NCBI GenBank assembly: GCA_949358305.1
Contig: OX442321.1
Coordinates: forward strand, 5,355,605-5,419,604
DNA from: Strigamia acuminata
Taxonomy: Eukaryota; Arthropoda; Chilopoda; Geophilomorpha; Linotaeniidae
Length of the DNA stretch: 64,000 bases
Direction of reading: 5' to 3'
Position 1 is the stretch's first letter; every line of letters begins with the position of its first letter. Positions 21,374 through 57,877 of this stretch are shown here, in pieces. The translations under genes and the position numbers were made by a program. Below the pieces are notes generated by a model, which made no database searches, was not told the origin of the DNA, and saw only the letters and a program-made list of their open reading frames with translations.

Positions 21374-21607
21374 TATACTCTGGCCATGTGTAAGTTTGGC
21401 CTAAATCCGAGCCTCATAACTCACTCTGTGCTGCCACCAGGAAAAATAGTTCAGAGTTTATTGCTTGCTTCTTTCAGAAATCTTAGAACGTTCGCTTACT
21501 ATTTCAGTAGATCGGTTGCAATCCTGGTGTTTGGATCTATTTTCTTGTATCGCTACACCAGAGAAAAGGCTCGGATTTAGGCCAAACTTACACATGGCCA
21601 GAGTATA
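21374..21607. mobile_element. TACTC MITE, copy A (234 bp, perfect 40-bp arms)
   Basis: The arms 21374-21413 and 21568-21607 are perfect inverted complements (40/40), beginning TATACTCTGGCCATGTGTAA. The family's internal conserved pieces are present: the GCCACCAGGAAAA motif near the left arm, and CTGGTGT...ACACCAG closing a short loop next to the right arm. The ends suggest a TA target (TA|TACTC...GAGTA|TA). No coding capacity. Confidence 0.9.
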
Positions 21608-21638
21608 AAACCCTTACTTTCACATCATGGGTTTAGAT

Positions 21639-21939
21639 CAGCGGTCGGCAATGGGCGGACCGTGGAAGGTCGAAACATGGGCTGCGGTGGCGTTTTCCCT
21701 CGGTTTCTTTGGTTTTTTGGTGTTTTTTTCTTGTTTTTCCTATTTTTTCATGTTTTTTAGGTTGTATTGGTATTTTTTGGGTTGTGTGTGTTTATTAGGG
21801 GCGGGGGGTTATTTGGTTTTTAAGTTTTTTTTCCGTTTTCTTAGGTTTTAGTAAGGTTTTTAAGCGTTTTTTTTTCTGGACCTCGATAAAAATTTTCAAT
21901 AGTATCCGGACCCCACTTAAAATTATTTGCCGACCCCTG
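21639..21939. mobile_element. hAT MITE with 8-bp target duplication (301 bp)
   Basis: The element starts CAGCGGTCGGCAA and ends TTGCCGACCCCTG, classic hAT termini. It is flanked by an exact 8-bp duplication GTTTAGAT (21631-21638 and 21940-21947). The interior is T-rich and non-coding. It lies 31 bp beyond the TACTC MITE copy A. Confidence 0.93.
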
Positions 21940-21947
21940 GTTTAGAT

Positions 21948-23049
21948 GATTGTGTGACATCATTTAAATGTCAATTTGTCACAACATATCAGTGAGTTTC
22001 TGCACTGCCTGGTGGATACAGCCGGAAACGCTCATCTTGCAGGCAAGCTTCAAGCTGGACTGGGATGATTTTTACGACCACGACTGTACATTGAAGTCCG
22101 TGGTCCAAATTTTGGCTGCACAATGTCCGTCTGTTTTATTTAAGAGTTTTAAACAAGCAGTGCGTGTGTCGAAGAAACATTACTTGGAAACCGAGGGACT
22201 AAAAGAAAGAATGGGGTTTCGGGAAGTGGCGAATGTGGGATATGTTGGTTGAACGTGACTATAGTTTTACTGGTCATTCCCATATTGGAAAAAACTCAAC
22301 AGCGGCAACTCTAAAGCACGCTTTCCTACCGCCGGCACGGCCTGTCTTTAAAAAGTATTTCTCTTTAATTTCACACATTTAATTGGTTAATGATGCACAT
22401 TTAGCCACCTGTTAATTGTGATTGGAATTGGTTCCGTTTGGTTAATTACAGCCTCCATTAACCAATGGGCTGTTATCAAAAATTTCACGAAGCATTAGCA
22501 GATGTCATGGCACATTATGCTCAGTTCCTTATATACTAAGTGCTTTTTACGATACACAATTGCAATAAATTGATAGTGGTGTATAAATAAATGCAGAAAA
22601 TGTTATTGATTTTTCTTTTACACACTCGCTTTACCAGAAGTCACACCAACCGAAGAGAAGCAAAAGCACGAGGAGCAATTTTCAGTACTAGGCACTATAG
22701 CGGTGGTCAGTTAGTGCTGATTTGGGCTTGGTAGCGAGGCTTCATATTTGACCGAGGGGATGATGGGAATTGAGACGAATTAAAGATGCAGTGTGGGTCT
22801 TGGGCAGTGACGGTGTTAGCATTCATGAAGCCGCTAAAACGTCATTACTGATTTTCGTTGAAAAAAAGATTCAGAGAGACAGAGTAGTAGAACTATGTGA
22901 GGTGGAGATTGTTTGTTGTGTTTTTAGTGCCATTTCTTGATGGGAATTGCTTTCTATTGTGGCACTGGGTTTCTGGAATGGTTTTCCATCGTGGTATTGT
23001 TTATTCTGGTTATTACTTCCGTCACTTGGATGGTGGTGGATTGACCTTT
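21948..23049. other. Non-coding intronic DNA
   Basis: No gene or clear element identified. A short open frame at 21968-22252 has no recognised homology and no splice context. Confidence 0.45.
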
Positions 23050-23177
23050 TATACTCCAAACCGGTACAACGTTGCCCTAACTCCTATTGGTTGAGTCGTC
23101 TCACTGGTGTAGTGGCACATAAAAGTAGCCCATGACACCAGAATTGTAATCTAACTAGGCAAAACAACCAATAAAAT
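23050..23177. mobile_element. TACTC MITE, copy B (one half, inverted orientation)
   Basis: Begins TATACTCCAAACCGGTACAA and reads inward through the conserved hairpin (CTGGTGTAGTG...GACACCAG). It stops where an unrelated dispersed repeat begins (AACAAGTAAACATCTG, 23178). The interior matches copy E at 35.6 kb read in reverse. The second arm is missing. Confidence 0.8.
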
Positions 23178-23345
23178 AACAAGTAAACATCTGTAATGCA
23201 TGGACGCATTACATATTAGACTTCTAAACTCCTTCTACACGAGATTTAACTCGTTGCAAATGCACGATGTAGATGCCGAACTCGCAAAAGCGCGATGTAG
23301 ACGTCGACGTCTCAAATGCGCTATGTAGACCCCTGAAAATACGAG
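23178..23345. repeat. Dispersed repeat shared with 35283-35455
   Basis: Both places contain CAAGTAAACATCTGTAATGC followed by GACGCATTACATATTAGACT and TCTAAAC, then CGATGTAGATGCCGAA blocks with CG-rich words. About 85% identical over the shared parts; the 35-kb copy has an extra 40 bp. No end structure resolved. Confidence 0.7.
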
Positions 23346-26300: not shown

Positions 26301-27164
26301 TGATTTTATTTTGTTGCTTTTTTGTGAATTTCGAGGAGGAAATTGGTAGAAAATAATGTAGACGGTTTAGATTCGGCCATTTTGAATGCAAATAAAGGCA
26401 ATGGGTGAGTTGTAGTTTACTCAAGCTCGAGAGCAATTTGCTCGCATTTATTAGCCCTGCAACTATTCCATTGAAAAGCTTTTGTCTGCCCATTATCCAG
26501 GCTGAGGGCAACAAATTTGGGAATCCATGTGCAGGCAAATTTGGACCTTTAAAGTTCACTTCTTTTGGGAGAGAAAAGGTGAAGTGGAATTTTATTAGGC
26601 CATTGTTTTTTTTTTTTTTAAAGAGGTTTTATATCTGGGTTTTGGGAGTTGTTTATGTTTGAAGTGTTTTTTTTTTTTAAGTTTATTTTTCTGTTTTAAT
26701 TTGTCAATTTACATTAATTAAGTGGAAGGGAGAGGCAGGGGTGTGGGAGATGGGGTTATTATTTTTTTTTTTTTTTGGTTGAGGTCAAATGAGGTTGAAA
26801 GGGTACATTTTTAGATGGGGGTTTGAAATATTTGGAGTAAATATTTAGTGCAATTGGTGTAGTTCTTGAAAGGCATTGCAGTAACTCTTGGGGGGATTTG
26901 ATGTGCTAATTTGGTCCAATTCAAGGAGAACATCTAGTGGGTAAGTTATTGGGGTTTGTTTCCAGGGAAATAAATAATTGTTATGCTCCATGGGTTGTTA
27001 ATTTGTTTTGGGATTTGAAAGGTAAAATTTATTTTTTAGTTTTATTTATTTTCTTTATAGGAAATGAAGTTTGGTGACAATTAAGTAAAAAAAAAAATTA
27101 TTTGGCATTTTTAATTGATTTTTGATTTTGTTTAATTGCCCATGTGGTTCAAAAATATATTTTT
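23346..27164. other. Non-coding intronic DNA with scattered repeat fragments
   Basis: No gene found. Noted pieces: 24000-24125, a fragment (ACATTAAATAAT, TTTTACAAAATAT) shared with 27595-27700 and 42780-42920; 24205-24500, CCGGCATGCCGGT and TATACCGGCATG words in inverted orientation, probably a MITE; a T-run near 25145; and a 26.1-26.6 kb stretch with A/T runs. Confidence 0.45.
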
Positions 27165-27590
27165 TACTCGAGTTGCACTCAAAAAGGCACCTCACAATGT
27201 GTACTCCCATTGGTCGAGCCAGTTTACTGGTGTAGTGATCCGGAAAAGTAGACCCAAACACCAGAATTGCATTACAATGTACAGACATTGCAATCGATTG
27301 CCTAGGCAATGGCCTAAAATTCAAACTTCCAGACGATGTAAGCAATAAACACAACAAACATGAGTTTGACATTTTTTAATGTGTAAAACTTCATTTTAAT
27401 GATGGAAATAACATTTTTTATTAAATAAAATCAAAATAACATAAACTAAATTAGTCATAATAATCACAACAATAAATAAAAAACAAAACTACTTCTCCTA
27501 GTAGTAGTATACAGTCTGGAGTTAGTAGTAAACTGGCTCGACCAATGGGAGTACACATTGTGAAGTGCCTTTTTGAGTGCAACTCGAGTA
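27165..27590. mobile_element. TACTC MITE, copy C (426 bp, 62-bp arms with one mismatch)
   Basis: Left arm 27165-27226 and right arm 27529-27590 are inverted complements with one mismatch, beginning TACTCGAGTTGCACTCAAAA. Relative to copies D and F the interior is reversed: the CTGGTGTAGTG...CAAACACCAG hairpin is next to the left arm and ACTACTTCTCCTAGTAGTAG next to the right arm. Confidence 0.92.
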
Positions 27591-29232
27591 TACAATATTT
27601 TGCTTTTTCACTTAATACGTTCCAAAATGTATAGTATTTTGCGGAATTATTTGTACATTAAATAATGCATTTCATAATAAAATTGCAAGAAAGGCGTACA
27701 AATGTTGGGATTGCATTTCTTAATTATCATTCGCAAACCAATAGCATGCAAAAATATATTACAAATGCATTTCAAACTACATTACAATATAATTTCAACG
27801 TATTTTTGAACCGTATGTGGGTAGGTTTGACTTTTTTCTGCTGGTTATAAATTTTCCATGAAATTTTAGAGGTCAAACAGTTAATGATAGTGGGAAATTG
27901 ATTTGTGTTGTTTTTTTTCTTTTAAGGTTATTTGTTTTCCTGTTAGATTGAATGATAAATTAGGTGATGTATTGGATGAGGTTTGTGTTTGACATTTAGT
28001 TTCCTTGAGATATTGTAGGTCTTGTTTTGATTTATTTGAAATGAATTCTAATTTAGAAGAGTCTGGATCGAGTGATATTTTTCTTGGGGAGGAGTTTGGG
28101 GGTTATTTATTGCATGTTGTGAGCAGGAAAAATGCAAGGCATGGAATGTTTTAATTTGGATTGAAACTACCACAAATTGCAATTTTATTGTGAACTGGAA
28201 TTTCTACCAAGTTTGTTACACAATTGTCTGCAGGTGTACAATTATATCCACCTGACTGTAGAATAGATCTTTGGAAAAATAAGGTCACGTGATCTTAATC
28301 CTCTCTATGAGTAAAACCAATGCAAAATAACATTATAACATTGTTAATTTGAAGTTTTATTTTTGTGGGCAGAGCCAAACTGCATTAAGTCATAATTTTC
28401 CAATGGTCTATTGGGTTGAAGTTTTTTTTTGTCTTACTGACTGACATGCATCAATCATTGAGACCGCCGAAAAAGCCGAAAGCGGGTTTTCGCTGCGGAG
28501 TTATGCTCTTAACGGCAAGATGTAAAGCGAAGTCTTCTATAAGCTGATTCCAGGCTTAGATTTCCGTCTGGCTCTTGAAATTTATCTTATCCTGTCCTTG
28601 GGAATCATCTGACTCCAAAGAGCCAAGGGGAAAGGTTTAAGTTTCCTTCCAGGTCCTGGAAAATCTTCTGATGAAATTTGTCACAATAAAACATGTGAAG
28701 GAATAGGGAGGTTTGCAGCTTTAATGCCTATTGCCTTTATTTTGATTCTCAGCAGAAACAACAATAAACTCATTATTAAAAGTAATTTACAGCGTAGTAC
28801 CAAAATATTTTTATTTATTTACCTTATTTTTAGTACTATTAGGCCTAATACTGCTAAATAACAACTGGAATTAGTAAATCGTCTGCGCAGAATGGGATGC
28901 GCAGTACGAATTTAGTATCAAAATACCGGTTGGCCACTGAAATTCTGGGGAAGAAAACATCTGCCATAGTGCAGCATGTGTAAAGGGATTGGGAATTTGT
29001 TCAATTCGAATGCGGATGGCTTTAAGGGTGCACTCTGATTCCTAGCTGAGGATTTGCAGCAAAGGATATTAAGTTTTTAACTCAAAGTTCACTGCAGTAA
29101 AGAAAGAAAGAGCTTCTGTCGGTTGGATTGTTTGCTGTACTCTTCGGGTACATTGCAGTTCGCCGCCCTGTACCTTGATGCTAAATTCAAGCTGCCAGTT
29201 GCCGCTTTGGCAGTAATAGGCATGATGCTGCT
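27591..29232. other. Non-coding intronic DNA
   Basis: No gene. 28830-28950 matches a dispersed repeat also present at 56365-56450 (TAATACTGCTRAATAACAAC, GGAATTAG, AATGGGATG.GCAGTACGAA). Confidence 0.45.
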
Positions 29233-29463
29233 GATATAGTTTATGCACATATAAATGTAAAACTCATGTTTGTTCTGTTTATTGGTGGCTTTGTCTGGAA
29301 AGCAAACAATTTTGAAATTTTGGCTGTTACTTAGGCAATCGATTACAATGTCTGTACATTGTAATGCATTTCTGGTGTTTGGGTCTATATTTTTGAATCA
29401 CTACACCAGTGACACGGCTCGCCAATGGGAGAAGGCCACCCTTTTGAGTCGAACAAGAGTATA
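29233..29463. mobile_element. TACTC MITE, copy D (left arm lost)
   Basis: The interior is nearly identical to copy F (AATCGATTACAATGTCTGTA, CTGGTGTTTGGGTCTATATT) and ends in an arm GAACAAGAGTATA. The distal arm matches F over TTTTGAGTCGAACAAGAGTA, but the inner arm differs (GGCCACCC in D, GGTGTCTC in F). Confidence 0.85.
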
Positions 29464-32400: not shown

Positions 32401-32928
32401 TCGCATTGCTCGGTCGGGGTGTACATCACAGAATGTTGGTAAAAACAAAGTTGAAGACAAAATGACAAGACATGACAAGCAACATAAAATTGACTCCCGG
32501 ATAAAGTCCACAGAGCTGACAGTCACGAGCCAATCGCAAACAAGCCGGAGAAATGCACAAGCGGTGGCGGCTTTAACATATGTGAGGCCCTAGGCAAGCG
32601 AGGTCCTTTTGATAAGACACGAGCAAACAAAATGGCCTAGGCCACTATGGTTCGCAAACTTTTTTGGCTTCAGAGCTCTTTGTATACATAAAAATGTTTG
32701 CTGAGCCCCAGGGACCCTGTGACTGTATGTGTGTCTATCGATGTTGGTTACATTACGATATTACATATGTAATTGCCGTTAGAACGTCGATTATCGGAAG
32801 TGAAAACACACAAGCGGCTGTAACATCAAAACACATTATTGCATTACTCTGAAATTTACTGGAGATATTCACGATAATGATGTGTGTACGAGGGGGTTAC
32901 GATAAATAATCGGAATTCTCTTCTGGTG
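29464..32928. other. Non-coding intronic DNA with several transposon remnants
   Basis: 29701-29779: a palindrome with arms of about 20 bp (GTGACATGTGACATCA and its complement). About 29840-29923: a right hAT end (GGGTCGCGATGC then TTTGGGAACTCCTG). 30843-30916: a short element with GGGGATCTAGGGGGG and CTAGATCCACCCTTG ends. 30943-31107: an inverted repeat of about 28 bp (GGTTTAGCTGTTTTAAGTTT). 32643-32680: a hAT-like start (GGTTCGCAAACTTTTTTGGC). No gene. Confidence 0.5.
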
Positions 32929-33566
32929 GGCAGAAAATCGCCAAACCGCTTTGCAACGGAAGGAAAAATTAGTCAAACGCAACGCAGAGTCTGTTCACAC
33001 TGTAGGGCATGTGTGAACAGAGCTGAAACAATTGATGTTGCGTCTGGTCAATCAGATGGTTTCAATGAAACCTGGAATTGGATCTAGTTCTAGAACCAGT
33101 TCCAGAATTCGCAAATGGCGGCTTGTTTGCATGTGGCAAAGTCTCGCCAACCAGACGTGAATCGACGAGAGTTGGAGTCGATCGTGTCTGGTTGGCCGCA
33201 AGACCTTTCCTTGCGTTGCGTCGCTTACTTCAACTTGGAGTTGAAGCAGGAATTGGCGTCAACATCAAGAATTTTCGGACCCAAACAGCTTGCGTTGCGT
33301 CAGTTTTCTTGCATTGCGTCTAGTGTGAACCTAGCTTAAAAGATAAAGATGCTGCAGCGTAGATCCATGAAAACTCTAAAGCTTGCGCTTGCTATGTATA
33401 CTCTGTCTGACCTTAAGAATAGAGAAAACTCCAGCCTTATTACTCCTTACTGTGGAGTGTGTGGCGTCAACGTCAAGAATTTTTGGACGCAAACAGCTTG
33501 CGCTGCGTCAGTTTTCTTTCATTGCGTCTAGTGTGAACACAAGTGTGAACCTAGCTGTATGCTGCA
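32929..33566. mobile_element. Harbinger-like MITE with GTTCACACTAG ends (truncated left, duplicated right)
   Basis: The interior matches 46530-46880 at about 93% (GAAACAATTGATRTTGCGTC, GGAGTCGATCGTG, CTTACTTCAACTTGGAGTTG). The right end (GCGTCTAGTGTGAACCTAGC, to about 33336) is intact. A second partial copy of the right end follows at 33460-33560. The left terminal inverted repeat is missing or diverged. Confidence 0.8.
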
Positions 33567-34322: not shown

Positions 34323-37300
34323 GTGACTTTCACGTCTTGAAATTAAAACGGCCGTTTGACTTCCGGTGAAAAATAGGAGAGAAAATTGCGGTGGAAATGT
34401 TGACTTGTGTTTGAAGATTGATTATCAGTGTTCCAAAGTGGTGCGTGTGACAAAAACTAAAAATGGCGGAAATGTATGGCGACCATATTGGATGCGGCTG
34501 AAGCGCCTTAGTGCTTTTTAATAAGGAAGAATTTTTTTTAATTTTTTTTTTTTTTTTTTTTTTTACAAATTTTTTTTAAAATTTTTTTAAAAGTTTTTAT
34601 TTAAAAAAAAAAAAATAAGTTGAGAAAAGAAAATTTTTTACGAAATACGAAAAAAAAAAAGAAGAGTTGAAGGCATCGACCAAATAATCCGGAATGATAG
34701 TGGGCTACGTCGGAGGAAAAATCAAGCGACTGATGAAACGATTTTCTCTCATTACCCACTTCACGATTAGAAAATACTTATTGGTGGCAATCGTCATCAG
34801 CGTGGTTTCTCTATTCACACTGGGCTACTGGGCGTCCAATTACAACCACAGGTAAGGAAAGCCGAACTCGGGCCAGTCAACAAGTCGATACCGATTTGCT
34901 GTTGTCATAGCGACACTGCTTCCGTCCATGCGGAAGCAAATTGATGGGAATAATCATGCGCGACGACGTGCGATTGATCCTAATGTATGCAAATGTTCGC
35001 AGCACTTGTCTTTATTTACATATTTCTTTTTTTTGAAGGATTCTAATTTATATTTTTTGCCTTGTGGCGATTGCGCGTGTTCTCAATGGGGAGATAAGAC
35101 TTTTGCGAGATTTATGGAAACATTTTTACGAAAAATTTTTAGATTGACCGCAGAGAAATAAATTATTCGAGTGATAGAATTTTTTTTTAAAAAAAAAAGA
35201 CCTTAGGAGCATTCAAACTTCAAAAGACGAAATTGTCTTCTTTTTAAATCACTTAAAGAAGCGAATTCACAATTGAACGTACTAAACAAGTAAACATCTG
35301 TAATGCATTGACGCATTACATATTAGACTTCTAAACCCCTTCTAGAATTGTAGCAAAGATAAACACATTCGGGATCGAACTGAATGTTGAATTTAGCTCG
35401 ACGCAAATGCGCGATGTAGATGCCGAAGTCGCAAAAACGCGATATAGATGTCACGCACGCTACTTCCGGAAATGACGAATATTACGTCAAAGTGAAATGA
35501 AGCCGGAAGTGCGCGGACAGACGGACATGACCGTTTTATTAGACTTTCTAAGCATCAGGTTTAGTAGTCTAAAATTGGGCTGAGCTAAAACGATGGCTGC
35601 CTACAACATGTGGTATACTCTGTCCTGATACAATGTTGTCCTATTTCCTAATTGGTTGAGCCGGATTACGCCTAACTGTGGACTGTGCTCTACTAAGTAG
35701 AAAAGCAGTTCTGTTTATTTTCAATGAGTTTTAGTGTAAAAAGTGATAAGAAGGAGGGATTTTATTTTATTTTCTAAAATAAGCTTTTTTTCTTTTTAAT
35801 CAATCAAACAATGTTAGCATAGGTTGTTGGTTTCTTTTGGCAGTGAACAAAGGTTTATTTATTTATTGGTTGTTTTGCCTAGTTAGATTACAATTCTGGT
35901 GTTATGGGCTACTTTTTTGTGCCACTACACCCGTGATACGGCTTGAATTAGGACAACGTTGTATCGGGAGAGAGTATAGCAATAGCATTAGCAGGTGCAG
36001 GTGTTATCTTTTGTAATATCCCAAGAAAAGTTATCCGGATAATTTTTTTGTTGAGGTAGCTGATTGGCTGTTTCCGGTCTTAAACAAGGCTTCAATTGGT
36101 CTTGAGCTGGCGAGGAATATTGTCATCTAAAAGCCTGAATGGCTGAGATCATGAACCAAGGATAACATGGACACGTATCCACACGTTCAGTGCGTTTTGC
36201 CACTGATGGCACCACATAGCCGCAACTGTATTCTGGGATGACAACAGGTAACAAAACGACACAATGAATCAATAGGAAATAACACGCGGATACGTGTTCA
36301 TGTTATCCTTGGTTCTTGGTTAGATTGCAGATTTTTTAAAGTTTTTTTGCCGTCTTCTGCTGAAATATTAATTATTTCCTTAACATGGAATTTATTGTTT
36401 GGGTGGTTCTGGCAGAGGATGGAAACCACTACAACAACAACAAGAAAAAATATAGGAATTCAGGCGTGCCAAAGAGCCATTTGGCACTTGCAAGTAGCCG
36501 CTGTTAGCAGGACGACATTATTGTACATTCTTCAGATGCCAATGTGGTTGAACTCACAACAGTAACATGTGTAATTCCATTAAAGTTTCAAGTTTGGCGA
36601 AAAGCCGAAAAGTTGTTCTAATGTGGCACTCATACAGCAAAATCCAAATTAGCATCTCTTCTCCTTCCTTCATCTATCATAATAGTTAGTTAGCGCCACA
36701 ACTACAGTTAGTGACCGGTATCTTGATGCTAATTTCAAACTTCCGAACTTTGCATCACATTCTGCACATGCGTTTAACATGGTACCATGTTGTAAATTAC
36801 TTTTGTTAATGAGTTTTTTTGTTTATTTACTTTATTTTAGCATTATTAGGCTCAATATTAGGCTTAATACAGTTAACCTTCGGAGGCATAAGGGTAAAAT
36901 GTACACGTTTTGGTATAAGGCATTATGCGTTTAGGGACAATTTTTAGGTCAATTGGTTAAAGTGCTATTTTCTTTATTTTTAGTTTGCAGCTAATTGTAT
37001 AGAGGGTGCAATACGTAAACAATAAAAATAAATAAGTTTGAACCATCTGGTGGTGGTTTTAAACACTACTGGTAAAAGCCAAAAGCTGTTGTTCGAAATG
37101 CTCTTTACTAACGCAGCAAAGCCAGCTTTAAAGTTACGCTGGAACTTTAAGACACAAAAAACTTCAAATCAGAATAATTAATTAAATAAATAACCAATAT
37201 CTATAAATTTCACCTGAGTTATAGTCTGTCATCATATAAGCATAGTTACAAATTTTCAGCAAGAAACAATGAACAGGGATAAAAATTTCCTATTCAAGAA

Positions 37301-40300
37301 AGTGCTTGTCCCTAAACGCGTATTGACTTATATCTTCGAGAGGTAAATAATGACAAGATGCGTAGTATGAATTTGGCATCAAGATACTGGGTGCAAACTG
37401 TAGGTCTGTGCGATTTATTTTCAATGTAAATATGAATGTGATATGCCAATGCCCGACGTATTCACACGATTGCAATATACCATATTTCAAATGCAATATA
37501 TCGCAGTATTTGAAAAATATGGCAAAAAATTGTAAATCCTAGATTGCAATACTGTGATATATTATTTGTAGCTTGTTTTGTAGACAGAATGGGTTGTGTG
37601 TAGATATATAGCTGTATTATTGTTACATCCAGTTGGTTGCTGCAAAAATTCCCCATTAAAGTGAATACAGTTTGTTTTGGTAAGCAGCGGAATTTAAAGG
37701 TCGTAGGAAGAGAAATAAAAAATTTCTCTAATCTCTAACCTGGAAAAAGGTTAGGTAACATTTTTAACTGTTAAACTTATTATTTTAATTATTTTAAAGC
37801 ATTGTTAAACTTCTAACCGAGCAGTAATTGTTTTGCCATGACGATTTTCAAAAGTTTATAAATACTGTCACTAGATGACGGTATTTTTACGCCATCGATG
37901 ACAAACGAGCAGGTGAATTCAAGCACAAATATGCGATTTTAGCATGGTTTTATGCGTTATGCTGGGCGCACACATACCGCGATTTTGCGTCGCGTTGCCA
38001 TTGCGCATGCGCAGGTGACGTCATTTCCTTCGCGCCGGTTCGAAATCTACTTTTGGAAATCGTACTTGTCCCAAGTACTATTTCGCCCGCGATTCATGTC
38101 GCAGCCAATCCGTGAGCTGTTTGAAATGACGTCATTTCATCAACATTTTCGGTTGCTGTGTGAATGCTGTGGAATGACGTCATAAGATTGAATTCGCAGA
38201 GCTGAAATAGCTACATGTGTGTAGCATTGCGCGCGACTTACAGCGCGATTTCGCTTGCGAAATCGCGACGCGACGCGAAATCGCGGTATGTGTGCGCCCA
38301 GCATTAGTGACGAAGGAGATGTTGACATTGCACGTATGAACTGCACGTATGACATGAAATCCCAGAATGCATTGCACAAAATGGTTCTTTTTTTCAAATG
38401 GTAAAAACACTATTTGATCATGTAAAACCACTAATACTAGATTATTGCTTAAGTTTTGCAGAAAAAAATACTCTATAACCTTTTTTAAGGTAATTTCAAA
38501 CAGATTAGAGAAATTTTTCATTTCTTTTCCTATGACTTTTAATGCGCATATACATCATGCCCAGAACCACTTCAACAGTTTACGATATTCGATTGCGATA
38601 TGCAAATGCGACATTGTAATTTTAATATTGCAAAGCGATATATTGCAATATCGCACAGGCCCTAGCCACAACTAATTTGGTTTTGCGTCATTACCATTCT
38701 GTGCACAGAGTGCAGCCTACTTTTACAAGGAAGTGGATTTACATTTACATGAGACGAGACGTAAGGCTATAAATTGCGATGGTTTGTGCATCGCATTTTA
38801 AAGAAGTTTTTGAGAGGAACAAATGAAGAAGGTCTTGCAGAGTTTGCATTTAGGGATATGTACTTTAATTAAGTCGTCTGCTATTGGCTCAATGTCGAGT
38901 ACAAGGGTTGCGCACTTGAGTTTGATAAACAAGTTGTCATCACCTTAAAGTTGCAATTGCGAAACAAGTGTCGCGTATGAAAGCAATGAAAGCAATTTAG
39001 TCGGGGACATGCGGACATTTTTATCCCTTTGCAAAATGGATCGTGGGGTTAGGCTTAAATGAATACGGCAAATGAAAACAAGGAAATTTAAAATTATTAA
39101 TAAAGTCGGAAATTATTTTGAAATAAATTCGCCAAAACGGCGCAAGGAACAGAAATTTGCACAAAATTTTAATACAAAGGAAATTTTTTTTTCTTTTCAA
39201 GTACGGCCGGATTAATGTTTCGCGGGGCCCATGAATCAGGAGTGGATTTATGTGTTTTCGCAGTTCTCTAAGGAGAAGGGCCCCTAGGGGCTGTGGGGCC
39301 CATAATTTCAAAAGAAAAATTTTTGGTTCAAAATTTTTTTTTTAAAAGATTATTTTTTGGATATTTTTTTTTTTTAATTAGGGCCTCAAAAAATGGCTGC
39401 GTGAAGTGCCCCCCCACGACTAGAAATGCGTTTCTGCCGTGAATGTTAGGAAATGATATCTTTACATTTTCATGCAAAAAGAATGAATTTGCAGGTGGAA
39501 AAATGCATTTGCAGGCGGAAAAATGCATTTTTATGGGAAGTAAATTTATTTTTAGCTAAAAAATTGTCTTTTTATGCAAACAATGCATTTTCATGCAAAA
39601 GAATGCATTTTCACGCAACAGGTAACACAAATCATTTTCCGACAAAATAATAAATTTTCTTGTGGAAAAGATGCATTTTCATGTGAAAAAATGCATTTTC
39701 ATGCAAAAAAAAAATGCATTTTTATGTGCCAAAATGCATTTTCAGTATATTTTCACGTGCCAAAATGCATTTTTAGTGCATTTTCATGTGCCAAAATGCG
39801 TTTTCAGTGCATTTCCATGTGCCAAAATGCATTTTCAGTGCATTTTCATGTGCCAAAATGCATTTTTAGTGCATTTCCACGTGCCAAAATGCATTTTCAG
39901 TGCTTTCCATGTGCCAAAATGCATTTTCAGTGCATTTTCATGTGCCAAAATGCATTTTCAGTGCATTTCCACGTGCCAAAATGCATTTTCAGTGCATTTC
40001 CACGAGCCAAAATGCATTTTCACACACAGAATTGCATTTCTAGAGAAACGCATGCGGTTTTATCTGAAAAAGAAAATCCGTTTTCTACATGCACAATGAG
40101 GCTCTTTAAAATCGGGGGCCCGTGGCATTTGCCCCTTGCCTCTCCAATTTAGCCCTGACCTGAGGGGCAATGAAGCCATTTGTTTTAAATGCGCCCTTGA
40201 TGAAACGCGCACTTCCTTGATACAGAGCGGTCGTTTTTAATGCGCCACTACTACTGGACTGTGGCCGCAGTGGGCTGCAGCAACCCTTAAAGAAATTCCA

Positions 40301-40568
40301 GCCTTTATTTCTATCTATATTCAACAACAGGCTGTTGAAAAACGATTTTGATGCCAATATGGAATCAGAAACTTGCACCAACGACAGCTGGCCCCATCTC
40401 TTTTATTACAAGATTTACGATTGTGTCAAGTACTCGCATGTTGTGATATGTGCACATTGACTTTAATTATTGAGCATAATGTAGTGGTGGCGCGAGCGAA
40501 TATCTAAATTGAGACGCGGTGGATAACAACATAGACCTCGGCCTCGCTATCGATTGATTCGTAGAAAT

Positions 40569-40601
<33 letters not shown>

Positions 40602-43600
40602 GAAAAATATTTTTTTTTTTGGATAAAACTTATTTGAAAAGAAGTTTTATCAGTAATTGTGTGAGAGAGAAAAAAAAAGTTGGTGTCAATTTTTTTTTTT
40701 TCTTTCATTTTTCATGAAAGCGCATATAGTGAACGCTCATGTTTGGAAACACTTATAGAGTGGCGCCGTCAGATGTAACTCAATTTACTCGGCGTCTTGA
40801 ATACATTAGAGACAACGACAGGAAATTTTTTAACTCATAATTTCTGTTTTGGCTTGTTAAAAGGGAAAGGGGGAAAGTTTTTGTTTTTGTTTTCCCTTTG
40901 TGTTTTCTGTGCAGCGGGAGAGCCGATCTTTATGTAAATCTGTGATGTGAATGAAAACAAGCAAAAGAGAATGAAAATGCAAGTTAGGAAAGTAATGAAA
41001 TGTTATTTTTTTTGTTTTTTGTTTTTTGTTTTTTAGTTTCGTCAGCTCGAGGCCGGAATCGACTTTCAAATGTCACTTCAGCCAAGATACAACTTCGTAC
41101 GGGTCCAGGAGGACCAATGTCCACGCGTCCAGAGAAAGTCTTCGAATCGATTCCAAGGTTCTGGTCTTTGTCGAAACACAGTATTCGAAACTCGGGAGAG
41201 AAATATGCGAGCTTTTGGAAGCAAATCGAATGAAGTATTATTATTATTATCATTATTATTATTATTATTATTATTATTACCGTAAATGCTTTAATAGAAT
41301 GCGGAATGCCCATTCAATGCAGTATTTTTTACAACGCTGGTCTAAATTGACAAAACGACTGAATTCAATATCTAAATTGACAAAACGACTGAATTCAATA
41401 TCTAAATTGAACAAAACGACTAAAATAAATGTCTAAATTGAACAAAACGACTAAAATAAATGTCTAAATTGAACAAAACGACTAAATCAACTGTCTAAAT
41501 TGAACAAAACGACTAAATTAAATGTCTAAATTGAACAAAACGACTAAAATAAATGTCTAAATTGAACTAAACGACTAAAATAAATGTCTAAATTGAACAA
41601 AACGACTAAAATAAATGTCTAAATTGAACAAAACGACTAAATCAACTGTCTAAATTGAACAAAACGACTAAATTAAATGTCTAAATTGAACAAAACGACT
41701 AAAATAAATGTCTAAATTGAACAAAACGACTAAAATAAATGTCTAAATTGAACAAAACGACTAAAATAAATGTCTAAATTGAACAAACCGACTAAAATTA
41801 TGGTAAAAATCTAGGTTTTCTCAGTATAACACCTCCATTCTATTAGAGCATTTACGGTATTACTTCTAACAATGCGGATTGTGCACTAAGGGATGGAAGA
41901 ATGCAGTGGTGAAAGCGCCATACTGCAAAATCTGCAATGCGCGGTGCCCATGGCCACGAAGGACCCTTGAGCGCCCAAAGCCAATTGGAGATTTGGAGGA
42001 ACCGTGTCCTGATTTTTAATACAAATGGGCCCTTCTAGTCTTTCACTATAGTCTGCAAAATTCCAGTCTATGCACGCATAAACACATCACATAGATGATT
42101 TTTAGAAATAACTAGTCGTGACTTGCGCACCACACGCTGTGTAATTAAAATGAATAAGTAGTAATAATAAAATCCAATAGAATTCAACAAAATTTAGCTT
42201 TTATGTTTGAATTTGACATTATGATACTGGACGCAGATTGTAGGCTTGTGTGCTTATTTTTCTATTCGTATGTGAATAATGAATGCTCGTATGGTTAAAA
42301 AATACATTGACATTATATTGCAATGTATTGGGTTTTACGAGAATGCATTTTGTAATACATTTTTCATGCTGTTGGTTTGCTTGCAAATGATATTACACAC
42401 AGAAAGGATGTTTATGCAAAAAAAAATCGGTTTATGCAGTAAAATATATAGAAATATGCAAAAAAAATCGTTTTATGCAGTAAAATATATAGAAATATGC
42501 AAAAAAAATTGTTTTATGCAGTAAAATATGCAAAAAGAATCGTTTTATGCAGTAAAGTACATAAAAATATGCAAAAAAAAAATTTACTCCAGTGAAATCA
42601 AGTATTAGGGAGTTATAAACAATGTGTGCATGGTGCATATCGTAATATAAATGTATAAATCGTGTTTTCTGACAAACATGGCGATTTATGCATTTACTTT
42701 ACGATTTTTTTTGCATTTACGGCAGTTTTGACCGCTCTATGCACTAAAATATTTTTCTATGCATTTATGCATTTATCCTTTCTCCAACGTTAATACATTT
42801 TACAAAATATATTACGAAATGCGTTCCCAATATATTTGTCAAATATGAATGCATTTTCAAAATGCATTTTTTCAATTGTATTATGAAACGCATTATTTAG
42901 TGTACAAATAATATACTTAATTAAGTGAAAAGCAATATATTTCCAATGTATTTCCAATGTATTTCCAATATATTTCCAATATATTTCCAATATATTTCCA
43001 ATGTATTTCCAATATATTTCCAATATATTTCCAATATATTTCCAATATATTTCCAATATATTTCCAATATATTTCCAATATATTTCCAATATATTTCCAA
43101 TATATTTCCAATGTATTTCCAATGTATTTCCAATATATTTCCAATATATTTCCAATATATTTCCAATGTATTTCCAATATATTTCCAATATATTTCCAAT
43201 ATATTTCCAATATATTTCCAATATATTTCCAATATATTTCCAATATATTTCCAATATATTTCCAATATATTTCCAATATATTTCCAATATATTTCCAATA
43301 TATTTCCAATATATTTCCAATGTATTTCCAATGTATTTCCAATATATTTCCAATGTATTTCCAATATATTTCCAATATATCGCAACGCAGAAATGCAAGC
43401 CATCTCTCGTTAAAACGCAAGTTGCGGCCAACTGCTTTGTCTGCAATGCAGTTGGCGAGTGTTAGTGGATTTGGTTGATTTTCTCAATTGATTAAGGAAA
43501 TAGTTAATTGGTGCGTTGAAATGAGATTAACCGGCGATTTATTCGTGCAAGGCTTTCTTTTTGATAGGCCCATAAACAAATCGTGGCAGGAACTAAGAGG

Positions 43601-46600: not shown

Positions 46601-49600
46601 TTGCGTCTGGACAATCAGATGGTCTCAATGAAACCTGGAATTGGATCTAGTTCTAGAACTAGCTCCAGAATCCGAAAATGGCGGCCTATTTGCATGTGGC
46701 AAAGTCTTTCCAACCAGACGTGAATCGACGAGAGTTGGAGTCGATCGTGATTGGTTGGCCGCAAGACCTTTCCTTGCGTTGCGTCACTTACTTCAACTTG
46801 GAGTTGAAGCAGGAATTGGCGTCAACGTCAAGAATTTTTGGACGCAAACAGCTTGCGTTGCGTCATTTTTCTTGCGTTGCGTCTAGTGTGAACACAAGTG
46901 TTAACCTACCTTTATGCCTCCGAGGGTTAAGCCAATTTCCTACACTTTGGACATCTAAAAATGGTTTTAAGCTCGTTTTGGGTGTGGTCTAGTCAAAGCA
47001 ATACCGCTAAAACGGGGTGATACGGTAAGAAAGGTCTATACCCTTGTTCGACTCAAAAAGGACACCCTCTCCCATTGGCCGAGCCGCATTAATCCTGACT
47101 CCAGTCTGTATTACTACGACTAGGAGAAGTAGTTTTTATTTTTATTTTGTTTTGTGATTGCTATGACCATTTTTATAAAGAAATGTTAATTCCTTTTATA
47201 AAATAAAGTTCTATGCAGATATAAATGCAAAACTCATGTTTGTTCTGTTTATCGGTTATTTTGTCTGGAAAGCACAGAATTTTGAAATTTTGGCCGTTAC
47301 CTAGGCAATCGATTACAATGTCTGTACATTGTAATGCATTTCTGGTGTTTGGGTCTATATTTTTGGATCACTACACCAGTGGATTGGCTCGGCCAATGGG
47401 AGAAGGTGTCTCTTTTGAGTCGAACAAGAGTACAGAGACATCTCTGAATTTAACGAGAACGGGTTAAATTTGCATGGGAAGCGTGAACTGTCGAGTTACT
47501 ATTGGAGGTTTACAAAAGTTCAATTGTTTCTTGTGCCACTTTAATCAAGCGATGAGTTAAAGTTTGATTGTGCGATTTGTTATTTTGTTTCCTCTTCCTG
47601 CTGGATGCTTTCACTAAACTTATTTATGACGCCGGTCGATCGAGCGTGACGGAAAGCGAGATAACTGCAACCGCTGCACGTTTGATTGTATCTTCTCAAC
47701 GGGATCCAACGCGTGTAAATTGTTTACACATTTTTCTATCGGTTGATCACAGTTACCAACTACCCTTGTTTTTTCATATATAATTCAGTCGCGACAAAAA
47801 TTTCATTCACTTCGAATGCACCAACACGTGTGCATCATAACTAAATAACTGCATTAATAACTGTATTGGAAGCCATTTTGGAGACTAGCCTAGATTAAGT
47901 TGGCGCGATATTGCCGACAATATTGGTATAATGTTTATATGTGGTGCCACCAGGACGACGCTAATTTTGTTTCGTCAACTCCCAGTGTCATATTGCTGTG
48001 TCTCCTCCGTGCGTAACCTTTTACTCTTAGTCTGAATAACGAAACCCATGTGTAGAAAGAAGTGCTGCGTGTTGCTGGCTAATTATTTTTCTCAAGATTA
48101 TTAAGAGACAAATGGGTGGATATACGTTATGTTGTTTACTGAAAACTTTAAATGTTTGAGGGAAACTATTTGTTTGGTTTTTCGCGCATTTGCACGCGGA
48201 ATTTGGGTATTGTGCAAGTGCCGAAGTTGGTTGGAATGATGGAGGATAGTTTTGTTGAGTATAATGATGTATCGGGAAGATCAGACGCGGTTTTTTTTCA
48301 CATGCGCGCAGGGAAATTGACCATAATGCAAATACTAAAGTTGCTGAGCTCGAAGAGAGGATCATTTTGGTGTTTAACGTGAGGTATATCCACTTAGAGT
48401 TGAACTGTTTCCGCTCACAGGGCTGGATTAAGAGTTGAAGGGTCCAGAGCACTTATACTAGAAGGGGTAAAAAGGGGGATATGAGGATTCAGAAGTACCA
48501 TCTTCACATTTTCAAGCAAAAAAATGCATTTTTACGAGAAATGAATTAATTTGGAGCTGAAGAAATTGCATTTTTACACGATAAAGGCATTTACTAGCAA
48601 AATAATACATTTTCAGGTAAAATAATGCATTTTTAGGCAAATTAATGCATTTCCAAGCAAAATAATGCATTTTTAGGCAAAATAATGATGAATTTTCAAG
48701 CAAAATATGCATTTCCAAGCAAAGTATTTGCATTTCCAAGCAAAATATGCATTTCCAAGCAAAATATGCATTTCCAAGCAAAATAATGCATTTATATATG
48801 AAAAAAAATGTATTTTTGAATAAAAACATGCATTTTCATGCAAAATAATGCATTTATATATGAAAAAAATGTATTTTTGAATATAAATATGCATTTCCAA
48901 GCAAAATAATGCATTTATATATGAAAAAAAATGTATTTTTGAATATAAATATGCATTTCCAAGCAAAATAATGCATTTATATATGAAAAAAAATGTATTT
49001 ATATATGAAAAAAAATGTATTTTTGAATAAAAACATGCATTTTCAATTTTTCATGCAAAATAATGTATTTTTATCTGAAAAAAATGCATTTTATGCGGCG
49101 GACCCGGGGTAATTGATACGTGAATCCTAATATTTAATTTGTTGGAACATCTTGGAAAAGTTATAAAATAGTTTTTACGTCTCGAAACGCGAAATTTCTT
49201 TCCCAGTTGTAAGCATCACTGAAAAACACTTAAAGTGATGTTGTTACATTTGATCCCAGCACTTCCTGTTTTGAGCGAAATGAAAAGCTTCTTCAGCTGA
49301 GCCCAAGTTTAATGCATCGCCTAGGAAACCGGTGTTTGCTCTATTCTTGTTAATTCATCTTAATTCGCCAGGTTGGATTGAAATTTGTCTTCATTAAATT
49401 TGGCGATTTAATTAATTTGTCAAGTGAGCTTCTTAATTTACATTTGCAGATGACGAGCAGAAGCTGCGCAGAGGCTGAGCAGCTTGAAAAGTGTGCGAGT
49501 CATCCAATTTGGAGTCGAGACGAAACGAGTTAATTTTTCTCGTCAAATCCCGACTACTCGCGATATTAATGAGCAGCGTTTTTGTGACACCCGAAAAATA

Positions 49601-52600
49601 ACGCGCATTTTGTGCTTTGCTTTCTCCTCCACAGGGTTCCCTTTATTCATTCACACGAATTTGAGCTTGAAGGATTGTCGACTAAATCCACTTTCGCCCA
49701 TTCTGCGCTTGACACGCGCCGGAGAAATCGCCACGGGACAGCTTCCAGCCGGCGATTGGACCGTGTTCCACTCGCAACACGAAACGTACTCGCCCCTCGC
49801 AACAGCCAGCGCCCTCACCGGCAGCGAATCGCTCGAAGATTCCTCCAAAATCCCGCCACAACTCACAACAGTCATCGAGGTAATTTTTAAAACGTGCACT
49901 TGCTATCGATTTGCACCTGCAGCTCTCGTGTTTATTTTGTTTTATCTCTCTCGCAAATGTAGGATCGCGGAATGTTGGATGGAATTCACCGCGTTATCTT
50001 CGGCAATGGCTTTAAATTCTGGCTCCATCGACTGCTCTTTCTCGACGCGTTGTCGTATTTGTCCAACGGCAAATTGAGCATCTCCCTGCACAGATACATT
50101 CTTATCGACATCGACGATATTTTTGTTGGCGAACGAGGAACACGTATGAAAGAGGATGATGTGACAGTACGTGCAATTTGTTGCCTCAGATTTTTTTTAA
50201 AGGGGGGGATTTGACTCGGGGTTTTAACGTGCGATTTTGCAGCGTTAATCATTGCGAATGTGATTTAAATGAAGGGATTACAGCAGAGTTCGAACTGCTA
50301 GCGAGCGGCTTGACGTTCGCTCTTATTGTGTTTGGATTTTCAGATTGTCGGATTTGCAGATTTGGAATGAGATTTGCATCAAAATTTGGGTGATTTGCTA
50401 AATTTGATGCTGATTTCATAAATTTGAGGCTGATTTCGTAAATTTGATGCTGATTTCATAAATTTGATGCTGATTTAACAAATTTGATGCTGATTTAACA
50501 AATTTGCTGCAGATTTAACAAATTTGCTGCAGATTTAACAAATTTGCTGCAGATTTAACAAATTTGCTGCAGATTTAACAAATTTCCTTGTTGTAAAATT
50601 TACTGGAAATACACAGGATTTTAGTTTTGTAAGATTGAATTTATTACTAAAAATCACCTTTTCAAATCCTGTACAACCAAAATCCAGAAGTTTAGATAAA
50701 CCTAGGACGATTTACCACAGGACTTCACATCCGCCATTTTTTTTAAATCTAAGTTGTTCGTAGAAATGCGAAGAAAGAGCCATCTGTCCTTACATTGTTA
50801 AAATCTTTTGCGGGCAAATGGCGGACAATTAACATTTGATTTAAAAATAATATCTAAAAATGTAATAAATAATTTTCAGACCTTATTTTTAACTAAAAAA
50901 TAAAATATAAATGTCTTCTAAAAATGAAAATGCGGAATGTCATGTCAGTTGTCCGCCATGCAGTTTCGGTCGGATGGCTGCACTTTTTCCTTATCACACA
51001 CTATTTCAGCCAACTACTGACAGTTAGTAATTTTGGGCCTAAAAATTCAATTTGGGGGCGTAAATGTGCAAATTTCTGCATAAAATTCCATTATTATGCC
51101 TATAAAGTATGGCTTTGGGCCTAAAATTCAATTTTGGGCCTCACTTATTATTCAATCTACGTACCTTTGACTGTTGTGTTTGATCGGGGCAACAAAATAA
51201 TCGCCATTTGCAATGGGCAGAGCTAACAATTTAGTGTTCTCAATTCTGATTGGCTGCGCTATATTTTAATTTAGTGTTGAAAACGATACACTAAAGATTT
51301 TTCCCTTACGATATGGCACTAAAATAGTGTAACGTGGCACAAAATAAGGGAAAAATGCATCCCGCAAACTCTCTATTGTTATTTGTTATTTGCAAATCAC
51401 AAAGAGTTTATGAGGATTTGCTTTACTGTCGATGCGCTCGGTGGACACAAATGAAAACATCCATTTATCGCAGCGTATTGCAAGCGACAATTTTTACGAC
51501 CGCAATTGTACATAGTGTACATGTCGAACCGAATCGCATATTGGAAACACGCTTGTGGTTCTGTTGGATTCCCAGCTAACTCAATTGGCAGCGGCGAGCG
51601 GGTGATCTGGGTTCAACTCCCGTCGCACGATTCCTTTGGGGTCCGGGCCGATTAAATTTTTTTCAATTACGCTCGACCGCCTTTTTAATTACACAGTTTG
51701 CCCGTATCTTATTTTTAGTCGTTCCGCAAGCAAAGGGGTAAGGTGACAGCAATTGGCGAGGACCTCGGAGTCCGTAGAGGTCTGTCGGCGGTGAATGCGG
51801 TTGCCATATGATGGAATCACTTTACAATTGGGATTTGGCGGCAGCAATAGGCAGGCTGGATTTTTGATCTGCAAGATGAGGCTTAAGGTGATAGCTCGAT
51901 GAGTTTGTGGCTCCCTTTAAAGATTCGAGGCCATTTTTTTTTTCTTTTCTTATTTTCTTGCAAAATTGATGCATTGAAAATGTGAAATTGCGGCTTTAAA
52001 TATGCAGTTTTTGAGGCATTGGTAATTTGTGGGAGATGAGTTTGTTTTTTTATTCATATAAATGGATTTTTTTGGAAGATAAGAGAAAATGCAGATAGAA
52101 ATAATCATCCATCATGGGACGAGAAGACGTTTTGGATGGGAAAGGAATTTGATTCCACTCTGTGATCATTGTTTTTACGGAGTTTAGTATTTGTGTCTTT
52201 TCAACTCTCTTTTTTCTGATTTATTATTTATATTTTCGTCTTTTGTTGTTAAAGGTTGTAGGAAGAGAAATGAAAAATTTCTATAATTTCTTTAAAATAA
52301 CCTTAAAAAAAGTTTTGTGACATTTTTTTCTGCAAAACTTAGGCAATAATTAATGGTTTTACATGATAAAATAGTGTTTTTACTATTGGAAAAAGGGAAC
52401 CATTTTGTGCAATGCATTCTGGGATTTCATGTGTAGCTAAAAACATACATGGTATCGCAGTGTAGTTAAAACATGCAAATCAACATCACATGAAAACTTG
52501 CTGAAATTGCGAATCGGCACTTGAATTTACGTGCTTGTTTGTTGTTGGTGTCGTATAAATAACGCCATCTAATGACAATATTTATAAACGTTTGAAAATC

Positions 52601-55600
52601 TTAATGGCGGAAGAATTACTGCCTCGGTTCGAAGCTTAACAGTACTTTTAAACAATATCCCGTAAGTTGAACAGTTAAAAATGTTACATAACCTTTTTAG
52701 AGTTATTTTAAAGCGATCAGAGAAATTTTTCATTTCTCTTTCTATGACTTTTAACGTGGGCTTATTAGTTGTACTTAATTATTTTTAATTATTTTTACGA
52801 AAAGCAAGGAATTAAAAAAGTGGGGGAAATGAATTATTTGCTGCATTAAGTTATTTTAGTGCATTTTATGTTTTAACATGCGTTTAAACAGGAAATGATG
52901 TCACTTTTGTTTTAAAATTGAAGTAAAACACACAATATTTTAGTTTTTGAATGCAGCTAGTGTTGCTATTTGCAGTCACGTGACGAGTTGAGAAGTCAAT
53001 TGGCAATGACTGTGATTGAATGGGCTGGAAGAGAAAATATGAGGACTACTAATATAGCGAATGGACCATTCTGGTTTCCATGACAACTATCAGCAGCAGA
53101 CCAGCAGTTGGTAGATGCCGGCAACGCGATGGATGGCCGTTGAATTTTTTTTTTCTTTCCCACCCAACACTTTTCTTGTTTTTGCATCAGTGGATGGTGA
53201 CTGAAAAGGGGAACACAATTGCTTGATATTTTTCAAGAAATCGCCTCTTAAAAGTATTTATTTCTCGCTAATTGACAAAATTGTAATGCGTTTATGTTGG
53301 CCGCTTGTTGTTCGAGGCAATTTGGAGAGCAATAACTGCATATCCATTAAAGCACATTAGTGATTAAAACTATAAAGCAGTATTAGTCTTGACTGTGTAG
53401 GCTTATGTTTGGTTTAATTGTAATAACTCGAGATATTACCGGTAATTGCGAAGTGCACATGCGGGAAGCTAAAAGGTGGACTCCAGATATTCTTAACAAA
53501 TTGTATTGAAAAAGGCAAAACCTTGTTAATGCAGATTGCCAAAATTGTGGGAATAGTTAAACCACAGACCTAAATACACTAGATTGCGAACTGAGGGATT
53601 GTGGGTTAGAAGCGTATGCTTATAGTTAGCGGCAACACTATATTCTTTTCCACTTCCTGTCAATGTTACGGCTGCGTGAAATCAGTATTCAAACAAAATT
53701 TCCAAACGATGGTTGGATTGTAAGACATTACAATTTATACTCTAACTCACTACAAGGTTGGCCTTTCTTCCATTGGCCGAGTCTCATTACTTTTAACTAC
53801 AGACTGTGTACTACCACCAGGAAAAGTAGTTTTGTTTTTTTTCATTTTTGTGATTATTATAATGATTAAAATGAGATAATTTTAATTGTATTTTATAATA
53901 AAATGTTTTTCTATTTATAAAATACAGTTTTATGCTGTTTTTATTTCAGCAAACATTCTTGTTTAGTTTATTGGTTGCTTTGTCAAGAAAGCAAACAATT
54001 TCAAAACAAAAAGTACTCGATTACAATGTCTGTACATCGATTGCAATTCGGGTGTTTTGGTCTATTTTTTGTGTGTCACTACACAAGTGAAACGGCTCGG
54101 CCAATAGGAGAAAGGCCAACCTTGGAGTGAGTTAGAGGATAGATGTATTTATTTAAATATAACTAAGAAAAAAATGCAAAACTGAAGAAGAAAAAATGAG
54201 AAAATGAGGGGAAAATGAGAGAAAATGAAAAATAGGATTGAAATTGACGAAGTAAGACATAAAACAGGAAGTTGGAGAGCATTCATGACGTCACTTCATA
54301 CCAACAATGCCGCCTCCTCTCACAAGCTGGGCGCCATTTGCGGTGCGCAGTCCAGTAGTATTTAGGTCTGTGGTTAAATAGAGATAATTATGACACATAG
54401 CTAAAACAAATGAAGGTGCTTCTAATGCATTATAGTTGTTGGGAGCCACTTATTGAATCGACAACACTTGGAATTGAGTTATCAGATTACACGAAGTGAC
54501 AAGATCGGCCATTTAGCATGATTTTTTATTGTATTGAAGAACAATACCGAACGCTAAGTTCAACTGAGATAAAATACAGCAAAACTCTTTACAGCGAAAA
54601 AAAAATTCCGCATAGACGGATTTTTGGTCTGTGGGGCTTTTCTCGCAGCTTATTTTAATGGTCCGACTTGTTTGTGCCGAATAGACGTTTTGGAATTTGG
54701 GGGCTTCCTGCCCCCACATGGGCCCTTCTCTGCGAGAATTTCTAAATCCGCCACTGATGGGCCCGATCGTTAGGGATTTTGGAACTGTTGAGAAAAGCAG
54801 GTTTGAAGTGAGTTCGTTATAACGAGGTTGGACTCTAATTCACTTGTCTTGTTTCGATTACGTGCAGGCTATTGTTAGTAGTATTTGATGATGCAGGACA
54901 CTTCTTTGATTCGCTCTTATCAAAGGATCCAATTGGTCCATCATAATAGTCTCGCACACAATACTTTGGAGCACTTGCAGAATTGCGTGCTCTGCAGTCT
55001 GCATTAAACTGTACTTGTGCAAAACTGCTGTCTTTGACTTGCACTGCAAAACAAAACCGAATTCCATTGCCAATTTGTCATCTTTTGTCTTTGGTTTGTC
55101 TTTTGGATCTTATGGATCACATTGCCGAAGAGCTTTTGGTAATTCGTTGTAACGAGGTTAAGAAATTGTAATTAGCATTTAATATAGCTTGAATGGCGCT
55201 TATAATATTAAAAATTACTGCGTTTTGAAGCGATAAATTTGATATATTTGTAACATTTTGAAGAAGAAAATGTGTTTAAATTTTCAAAATGCGCCGAAAA
55301 TCAATAAACTGCTCCACCCCTATGAAAATTTAAATTTTTTTGTGGAGTTTTTTTCTGGGAAAAGAAAGAAGAAAGAAAAAATAAAACAAGACGAGACTTT
55401 TATAAAACTTTAGCGAAATTTAATTACCAGCAGAAGTTTCTGTGAAGAAAGTTTTTAGTGTTTTTATAAACGGTAAAATATAATGCTATGTTTACACTTA
55501 AACCACTTTTCTAGAACTTATCATTTTTTACAAGTCTAAGTTCTACAAATCTGAAATCAATTGTTCACACGTAAGGATAGTTTTGTACAAGTGTCAGATT

Positions 55601-57322: not shown

Positions 57323-57653
57323 GTAAGTCAAGCGCTTTTATTAAGGGTTTTTGCCAGTGGTTGACTGGGTCTGAAAATATTGGTTGTCAGAAGACAAAAG
57401 AGGCCCATCGACAACACTAATATTGGAACTTCTATTATACTTTTAATATGTATGCCGTTTCTGTGGCACGAACATCTGCCACCTGCCTCTAACTGGGTTT
57501 TCTGTGCTTTTCCCAGTTCCCGGTGCAAATGCAAGGTTGGGTCCTTAAGAAAGTCGTCCCACAGAAAGTCGTCCCCCAGACAGGCGTCCTGTTTATGGGG
57601 CTATGCGCATGCTAAGTGTCACAAATACAAATACAAATATTGGGGACGTCATC

Positions 57654-57877
57654 TATACTCAAAACCACCACAACGTTGATCTATTTCAGCCTGTTTACGC
57701 CTAACTGTGTACTGTGTTCTACTACGTGGAAAAGTAGTTCTATTCCTTTGACAATGAAACAACTGTTGTTAATCAATCACAATGTCTGGAGTTCGAGGAC
57801 AATTCTGGTGTTATGAGCTACTTTTTTGTGTCCCTACACCAGTGAAATAGATCAACGTTGTGGTGGTTTTGAATATA
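57654..57877. mobile_element. TACTC MITE, copy H (224 bp)
   Basis: Arms TATACTCAAAACCACCACAA and, complemented, TATATTCAAAACCACCACAA, 33-34 bp with one mismatch. It has the ACTGTGTTCTACTACGTGGA motif and the CTGGTGT...ACACCAG hairpin. Smallest full copy. Confidence 0.92.

Follow-up and report, generated by a model that had tools for sequence, protein, structure and literature searches.

Copies in the window and element architecture

The window, that is, the whole stretch of 64,000 nt that was analysed, holds eight copies of a MITE family, listed here in window coordinates with the variable stretch of one arm.

21374–21607, forward strand: copy A, complete, outer TA duplications included; short interior; 40-nt arms including the outer TA (arm length taken from subfamily member L066)
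23050–23151, reverse strand: copy B, only the right module and right arm; E-type arm
27163–27592, reverse strand: copy C, complete; both arms 10 nt longer than the G arms (arm length taken from subfamily member L033)
29363–29463, forward strand: copy D, right module and right arm; F-type arm
35614–35978, forward strand: copy E, asymmetric, with a left arm of 50 nt that includes ATTGGTTGAG and a right arm of 40 nt without ATTGGTTGAG
47037–47434, forward strand: copy F, complete
53736–54141, forward strand: copy G, complete; included in the G-like set compared position by position
53744–53761, forward strand: variable stretch of the copy G left arm (arm positions 9–26), mirrored in the right arm
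57654–57877, forward strand: copy H, complete; short interior

The initial annotation had described A, C, E, F, G and H as two-armed, and inverted arms were found in all six. It had listed B, D and I as one-armed; the right halves of B (~23.1 kb) and D (~29.4 kb) were located, and copy I was not located by the module search (E < 0.01).

Complete window copies measure ~220–430 bp. The element consists of an outer TA, a TACTC end, an arm, a left module, a middle, a right module, the mirrored arm and a second TA, with arms of 40–58 nt in the types measured exactly. No open frame of at least 150 aa overlaps the window copies. Searching the genome (237.5 Mb, 157 contigs) gave 998–1891 first-look candidates per DNA query, and 226 for the query with the interior of A; the best 40 were scored for each. 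Being short, non-coding and abundant, with terminal inverted repeats at both ends, the elements have the defining features of MITEs. Extrapolating roughly from the eight elements in the window and 12 more in ~270 kb of sequence flanking the loci, the family may number in the order of 10^4 copies.

We derived profiles of the two interior modules from the six two-armed window copies and ran them against the window and 90 fetched loci. They recovered 107 paired elements, of which 89 lie at main hit positions, a count that leaves aside eight left and ten right modules that were unpaired. The right interior module (CTGGTGTTTGGGTCTA...TCACTACACCAG-like; for example at window positions 54039–54092 and 47333–47383) is a small inverted repeat itself, and is recognisable in every type aligned.

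Target-site duplication and candidate transposases

Outer TA dinucleotides were present at both ends in 18 of 21 readable A copies and in 19 of 22 readable C copies (30 copies fetched of each). In L041, a C copy lies inside the left module of a relative; by eye, TA stands on both sides of the insertion, and the uninterrupted sequence has a single TA at this target. The family thus makes the 2-bp TA target duplication of Tc1/mariner elements, which suggests a Tc1/mariner-type transposase. The base preceding the outer TA was C at 59 of 103 readable ends.

A partner transposase was sought by the DDE_3 family. Genome-wide, 150 matches were scored out of 1027 first-look candidates, 136 of them above the Pfam cut-off, and many lie in Tc1/mariner-type open frames of 333–352 aa. 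No DDE_3 gene was linked to TACTC arms; the one end region read, beside a single DDE_3 gene at L091, had no TACTC arm. The 40 longest of 98 open frames in the fetched loci, inspected by eye, included no evident partner transposase. Weak DDE_3 matches, perhaps integrase-like domains of retroelements, also fell within long open frames (mostly 1138–1900 aa).

Arms match within copies and align to one frame

The high match between the two arms of a copy, as claimed in the initial annotation, was confirmed in every two-armed window copy: 88% over 56 nt in A, 95% over 75 nt in C, 86% over 37 nt in E, 90% over 51 nt in F, 83% over 60 nt in G and 97% over 36 nt in H, these lengths taking in some flank. 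Direct alignment of the arms gave 41/41 in A and 71/75 in C.

Arm alignments and the comparison of middles used 45 elements, with only six of the other A and C loci kept, L001, L031 and L061 left out as duplicates of window copies, and six elements with short arm matches skipped. The arms share a common frame, with TATACTC at the end, AA at positions 19–20 in nearly all aligned arms and ATTGG-CGAGCC in most subfamilies. Since the arms fit this one frame they are not unrelated captures, and the suggestion that arms were captured and inverted de novo is ruled out. The earlier statement that arms of different copies are unlike except for TACTC and an inner block holds in so far as the differences are concentrated in short blocks; it misses the common frame.

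When each left arm was compared with all right arms, the element's own right arm was the best or tied-best partner in 34 of the 43 elements scored out of 45. In seven of the nine misses the better partner belonged to the same arm type; the other two elements have truncated or misaligned arms. The arms covary, being matched inside a copy and different among copies.

Variable blocks in G-like arms

We compared arms position by position in 25 G-like copies, chosen by similarity to copy G with the arms included, so that arm diversity is, if anything, understated. At positions 9–13, 15–18 and 21–24, agreement was 0.80–1.00 within a copy compared to 0.33–0.66 between copies. Position 26 was intermediate (0.92 within, 0.78 between), and at positions 14, 19, 20, 25 and 27–46 copies resembled each other about as much as the two arms of one copy did. 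Mean mismatch in alignment columns 8–27 was 0.072 within and 0.36 between copies, compared to 0.105 and 0.12 in columns 28–46; the interior modules differed between copies by 0.136 and 0.124. By arm segment, the within-copy mismatch was 0.164 (positions 3–8), 0.070 (9–26) and 0.080 (27–41).

Over positions 9–26, the mismatch of 0.070 with a copy's own arm rose to 0.373 when right arms were dealt at random; the lowest value in 2000 shuffles, which ignore subfamily kinship, was 0.291. Own-arm mismatch lies far under the shuffles, and the within-copy pairing is therefore not due to chance. The mean pairwise difference was 0.387 in the blocks compared to 0.154 in the interiors, decay not yet subtracted, which indicates that the blocks diverged several times more than the interior among source lineages. 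Arm distance correlated with interior distance among the G-like copies (Spearman 0.41), indicating that the arms follow lineages. Like block states recur by eye on separate branches of an interior tree shown without support values, and the 25 copies carry 22 distinct left-arm strings over positions 9–26, private mutations included.

At position 44, towards the inner end of the arm, six G-like left arms carry a C that is absent from their right arms. This is a one-sided change at the level of the source, and copying between arms, if it occurs, need not span the whole arm.

Fixed-arm subfamilies and one-sided decay

The initial annotation had raised the possibility that arms are rewritten copy by copy, and had named subfamilies with fixed arms as the finding that would speak for ordinary subfamily structure. 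At the tips of the family such subfamilies are largely what we observed: the C, A, H and L026 types are each a subfamily of multiple copies in which the arms are largely fixed, which contradicts rewriting in each copy. C copies were 97–100% identical to the query (best 40 of hundreds to thousands of first-look candidates), and A copies 97–100% over the interior query (best 40 of 226); the 30 A copies fetched carry one arm type, save a few truncated arms. H copies were 86–100% identical over the whole length among the best 40 scored, and rows with H-type arms 89–100%. Among the best 40 scored of the L026 type, 18 were 97–100% identical to the query and the rest 78–95%. Thirteen L026-type copies resembled the query at only 78–79% overall, and their arms matched at 87–94% in the 12 that have arm rows, indicating that arm switching is episodic and not uniformly fast.

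Standing copies lose pairing, contrary to the earlier reading that pairing is kept where ordinary decay would erode it, and mostly by differences on one side. In 30 C copies compared with the subfamily arm we counted 18 left and 22 right differences, 38 of them one-sided, with one site changed on both arms, and no shared change was present on both arms. In 30 A copies there were 28 left and 33 right differences, giving 31 one-sided and 15 two-sided sites. The two-sided sites in A represent just three changes: TG to GA (six copies, 12 sites), A to C (two) and C to T (one). TG to GA is on both arms in all six carriers, and two other A copies have just its G to A half, on the left only; in two copies C to T is confined to the right arm. 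The prevalence of one-sided differences in A and C indicates that there is no detectable arm-to-arm correction in standing copies; erasure of arm differences in individual copies, one mark of inverted-repeat homogenisation, did not appear. What survives of the original observation is a lock-step change of arms that lies deeper, along source lineages, and is concentrated at short blocks.

Paired length changes and inner flanks

Arm length, taken from TATACTC to the end of the tail, was determined exactly for ten chosen copies. The two arms were equal in G (48/48 nt), C (58/58) and A (40/40). Arms of 41/41 nt in L063_1798 compare with 49/49 in its relative L048_769, arms of 40/40 in L028_2520 with 49/49 in L005_186, and L026_2972 measures 52/52 up to GGCC, nine more than G up to that point. 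In all, five types carry the same 8–10 bp length change on both arms. One-sided states were also found: the arms of copy E measure 50/40, the tail being absent on the right side only; the tail is likewise missing on the right only in L007_2838; and in L054_2964 the right arm is short and no left arm is preserved.

Automatic measurement, from which 23 of 104 rows were dropped and some arms were misplaced (L068, L083, window_57694, L062_1101), was used for the clear classes only: 46/48 in 23 A copies, 67/66 in 27 C copies, and 57/56 in ten copies, nine of them G-like. Many relatives were found for the L028_2520 and E types. Net length was unchanged in ten of the 22 L028_2520 relatives that span both arms, and most relatives of E differed in length, both comparisons concerning length only.

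The C subfamily has the inner flank AGTTTACT on both sides, with an exact match in 24 of 30 copies, and AGTTTACT resembles the right-side flanks of relatives. This right-type flank on the left of C, like the paired length changes, is hard to obtain by separate mutation, which argues for arm copying in source elements. Changes of blocks that are common to both arms in descendant lineages, as expected of homogenisation, were present. The identical paired length changes are best explained by the earlier proposal of copying between the two arms of an element; it does not extend to standing copies. The paired events are few, namely the five length types and the three substitution events in A.

Interpretation and alternative explanations

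The explanation that we lean towards, with slightly more confidence than doubt, is a MITE family with recognition blocks in its arms, in which arms are copied at the level of the source and matched pairs are amplified. A TA-duplicating Tc1/mariner-like transposase would move the non-autonomous family, with a transposase-recognition sequence held in both arms. The variable stretches (~9–18 and 21–24, with AA at 19–20 between them) may be the specificity-determining contacts; we read the blocks as DNA contacts because they occupy short fixed positions around the near-invariant AA. In a source element, a new arm sequence would appear first on one side, and would then be copied onto the opposite arm by template switching or by hairpin or gap repair between the inverted arms. 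The matched pair would be amplified, we propose, because both ends need binding by the same transposase, and after insertion each arm would decay independently. Copying is apparently occasional and takes place in ancestral source elements, and apparently only matched pairs amplify. We infer the contact role of the blocks, and the mechanism and timing of the copying, from these sequence patterns.

A bolder and rather doubtful extension is that the arm blocks form a fast-switching lock-and-key code, in which transposase lineages diversify in DNA-binding specificity (as a way to evade titration by MITEs, for instance), and MITE source lineages re-key by a mutation in one arm followed by copying.

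The strongest alternative dispenses with copying: subfamily structure and selection only, with separate mutations in each arm and a transposase that favours matched ends. The largely fixed arms inside subfamilies, the one-sided differences in standing copies, the resemblance of the variable positions to protein contacts and the persistence of one-sided source-level changes at position 44 all agree with this account. Equal length changes of 8–10 bp with identical sequence in both arms are, however, hard to reach by separate mutations, as is the presence, on the left of C, of an inner flank of right-side type, and we consider selection by itself unlikely.

Internal deletion of an autonomous element is the standard origin of a MITE, and the genome has many different DDE_3 genes. 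Each subfamily might then have arisen separately, by internal deletion from its own autonomous element, its arms and subterminal modules inherited and unchanged within the MITE. The non-coding middles argue against such independent origins for the main types. Among the G, F, C, L026, L024, L021 and L048 types, every pair of middles (outside the modules) outscored all 60 shuffles (G–C, for instance, reached 105 compared to a shuffle maximum of 65, and G–L024 264 compared to 63). These types therefore descend from one non-coding ancestor, and the changes in their arms came later, which makes separate derivation decidedly improbable. Several pairs with E, L070, L063 or L005 middles were not above shuffles, these middles matching only some others; the comparison covered middles longer than those of A, H and L028 (46–56 bp).

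Ongoing gene conversion or palindrome correction within standing copies would draw on a process, template switching, that is known to homogenise inverted-repeat arms (PMC8604942). The ratio of 38 one-sided differences to one two-sided in the 30 C copies, and the 31 one-sided differences in the 30 A copies, where the 15 two-sided sites come down to three changes, argue against continuing conversion of this kind, and we give it very little credence. Selection for a folded stem, whether of RNA or of DNA, was also raised initially and is scarcely credible. The two arms could pair into a long stem, and covariation is seen at their variable positions, but short blocks hold most of the variation and the stem is otherwise largely constant, pairing is not maintained in standing copies, and no Rfam family reached the gathering score in the window.

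Relation to known systems

Like other Tc1/mariner-type (Stowaway-like) MITEs, the family is short and non-coding, duplicates TA, has inverted ends, reaches high copy number and falls into subfamilies. Stowaway ends are a constant CTCCCTCC-like sequence. The ends here do not fit that terminal consensus, having TACTC followed by variable bases, and the inner arm blocks vary among subfamilies yet match within copies. Foldback arms are marked by internal repeats, none of which was seen in the arms here on inspection short of a systematic search. Inverted ends are shared with foldback and long-TIR elements such as Tm1 (PMC3169594) and Tetris (PMC4079207); the arms here differ in measuring 40–58 nt in the measured types.

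In yeast protein-coding genes, one inverted-repeat arm can template the other by template switching, erasing the differences between them (PMC8604942). Arm-templated homogenisation of inverted repeats would be common to both cases. Here it would have taken place in the source lineages of a transposon, over interiors of mostly 150–300 bp, and would be coupled to amplification; standing copies are not detectably corrected. The Xenopus T2-MITE likewise comprises many subfamilies of one family, some of them long-lived and recently active, and is associated with Kolobok transposases; it differs in its TTAA target, and paired arm change is not described in the accessible part of that report (PMC6004289). 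A search of the open literature by title and the beginning of the abstract, mostly outside subscription journals, returned no description of paired change in MITE arms.

Because a transposase has to recognise both ends of a cut-and-paste element, a new recognition sequence must be acquired twice, and how this doubled change is achieved is rarely visible. Having many lineages, the one-sided state and paired length changes in a single genome would allow a direct test of arm-to-arm copying and of the joint evolution of transposase specificity and transposon ends. If the lock-and-key reading were true, one non-coding element would repeatedly re-key itself to new transposases.

Other features of the window and fetched loci

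Three other inverted-repeat pairs lie in the window, at 37959–38304 (53 nt, 91%), 36150–36318 (38 nt, 87%) and 52248–52755 (62 nt, 84%), and may be members of other MITE families. A short-repeat array at 42790–43478, open in several frames, is likely a satellite. The region 39500–40150 contains AAAATGCATTTT-type repeats that make up many small inverted pairs, and an open frame of 192 aa. Flanks of the fetched loci encode matches to ASC channel, UDPGT, ELO, HMG-box and galactosyltransferase families, from which the genome is probably that of an animal. In two pairs of loci, L085/L086 and L020/L022, the same or nearly the same flank stands beside the MITE arm, and these elements were probably duplicated along with their surroundings and not by transposition.
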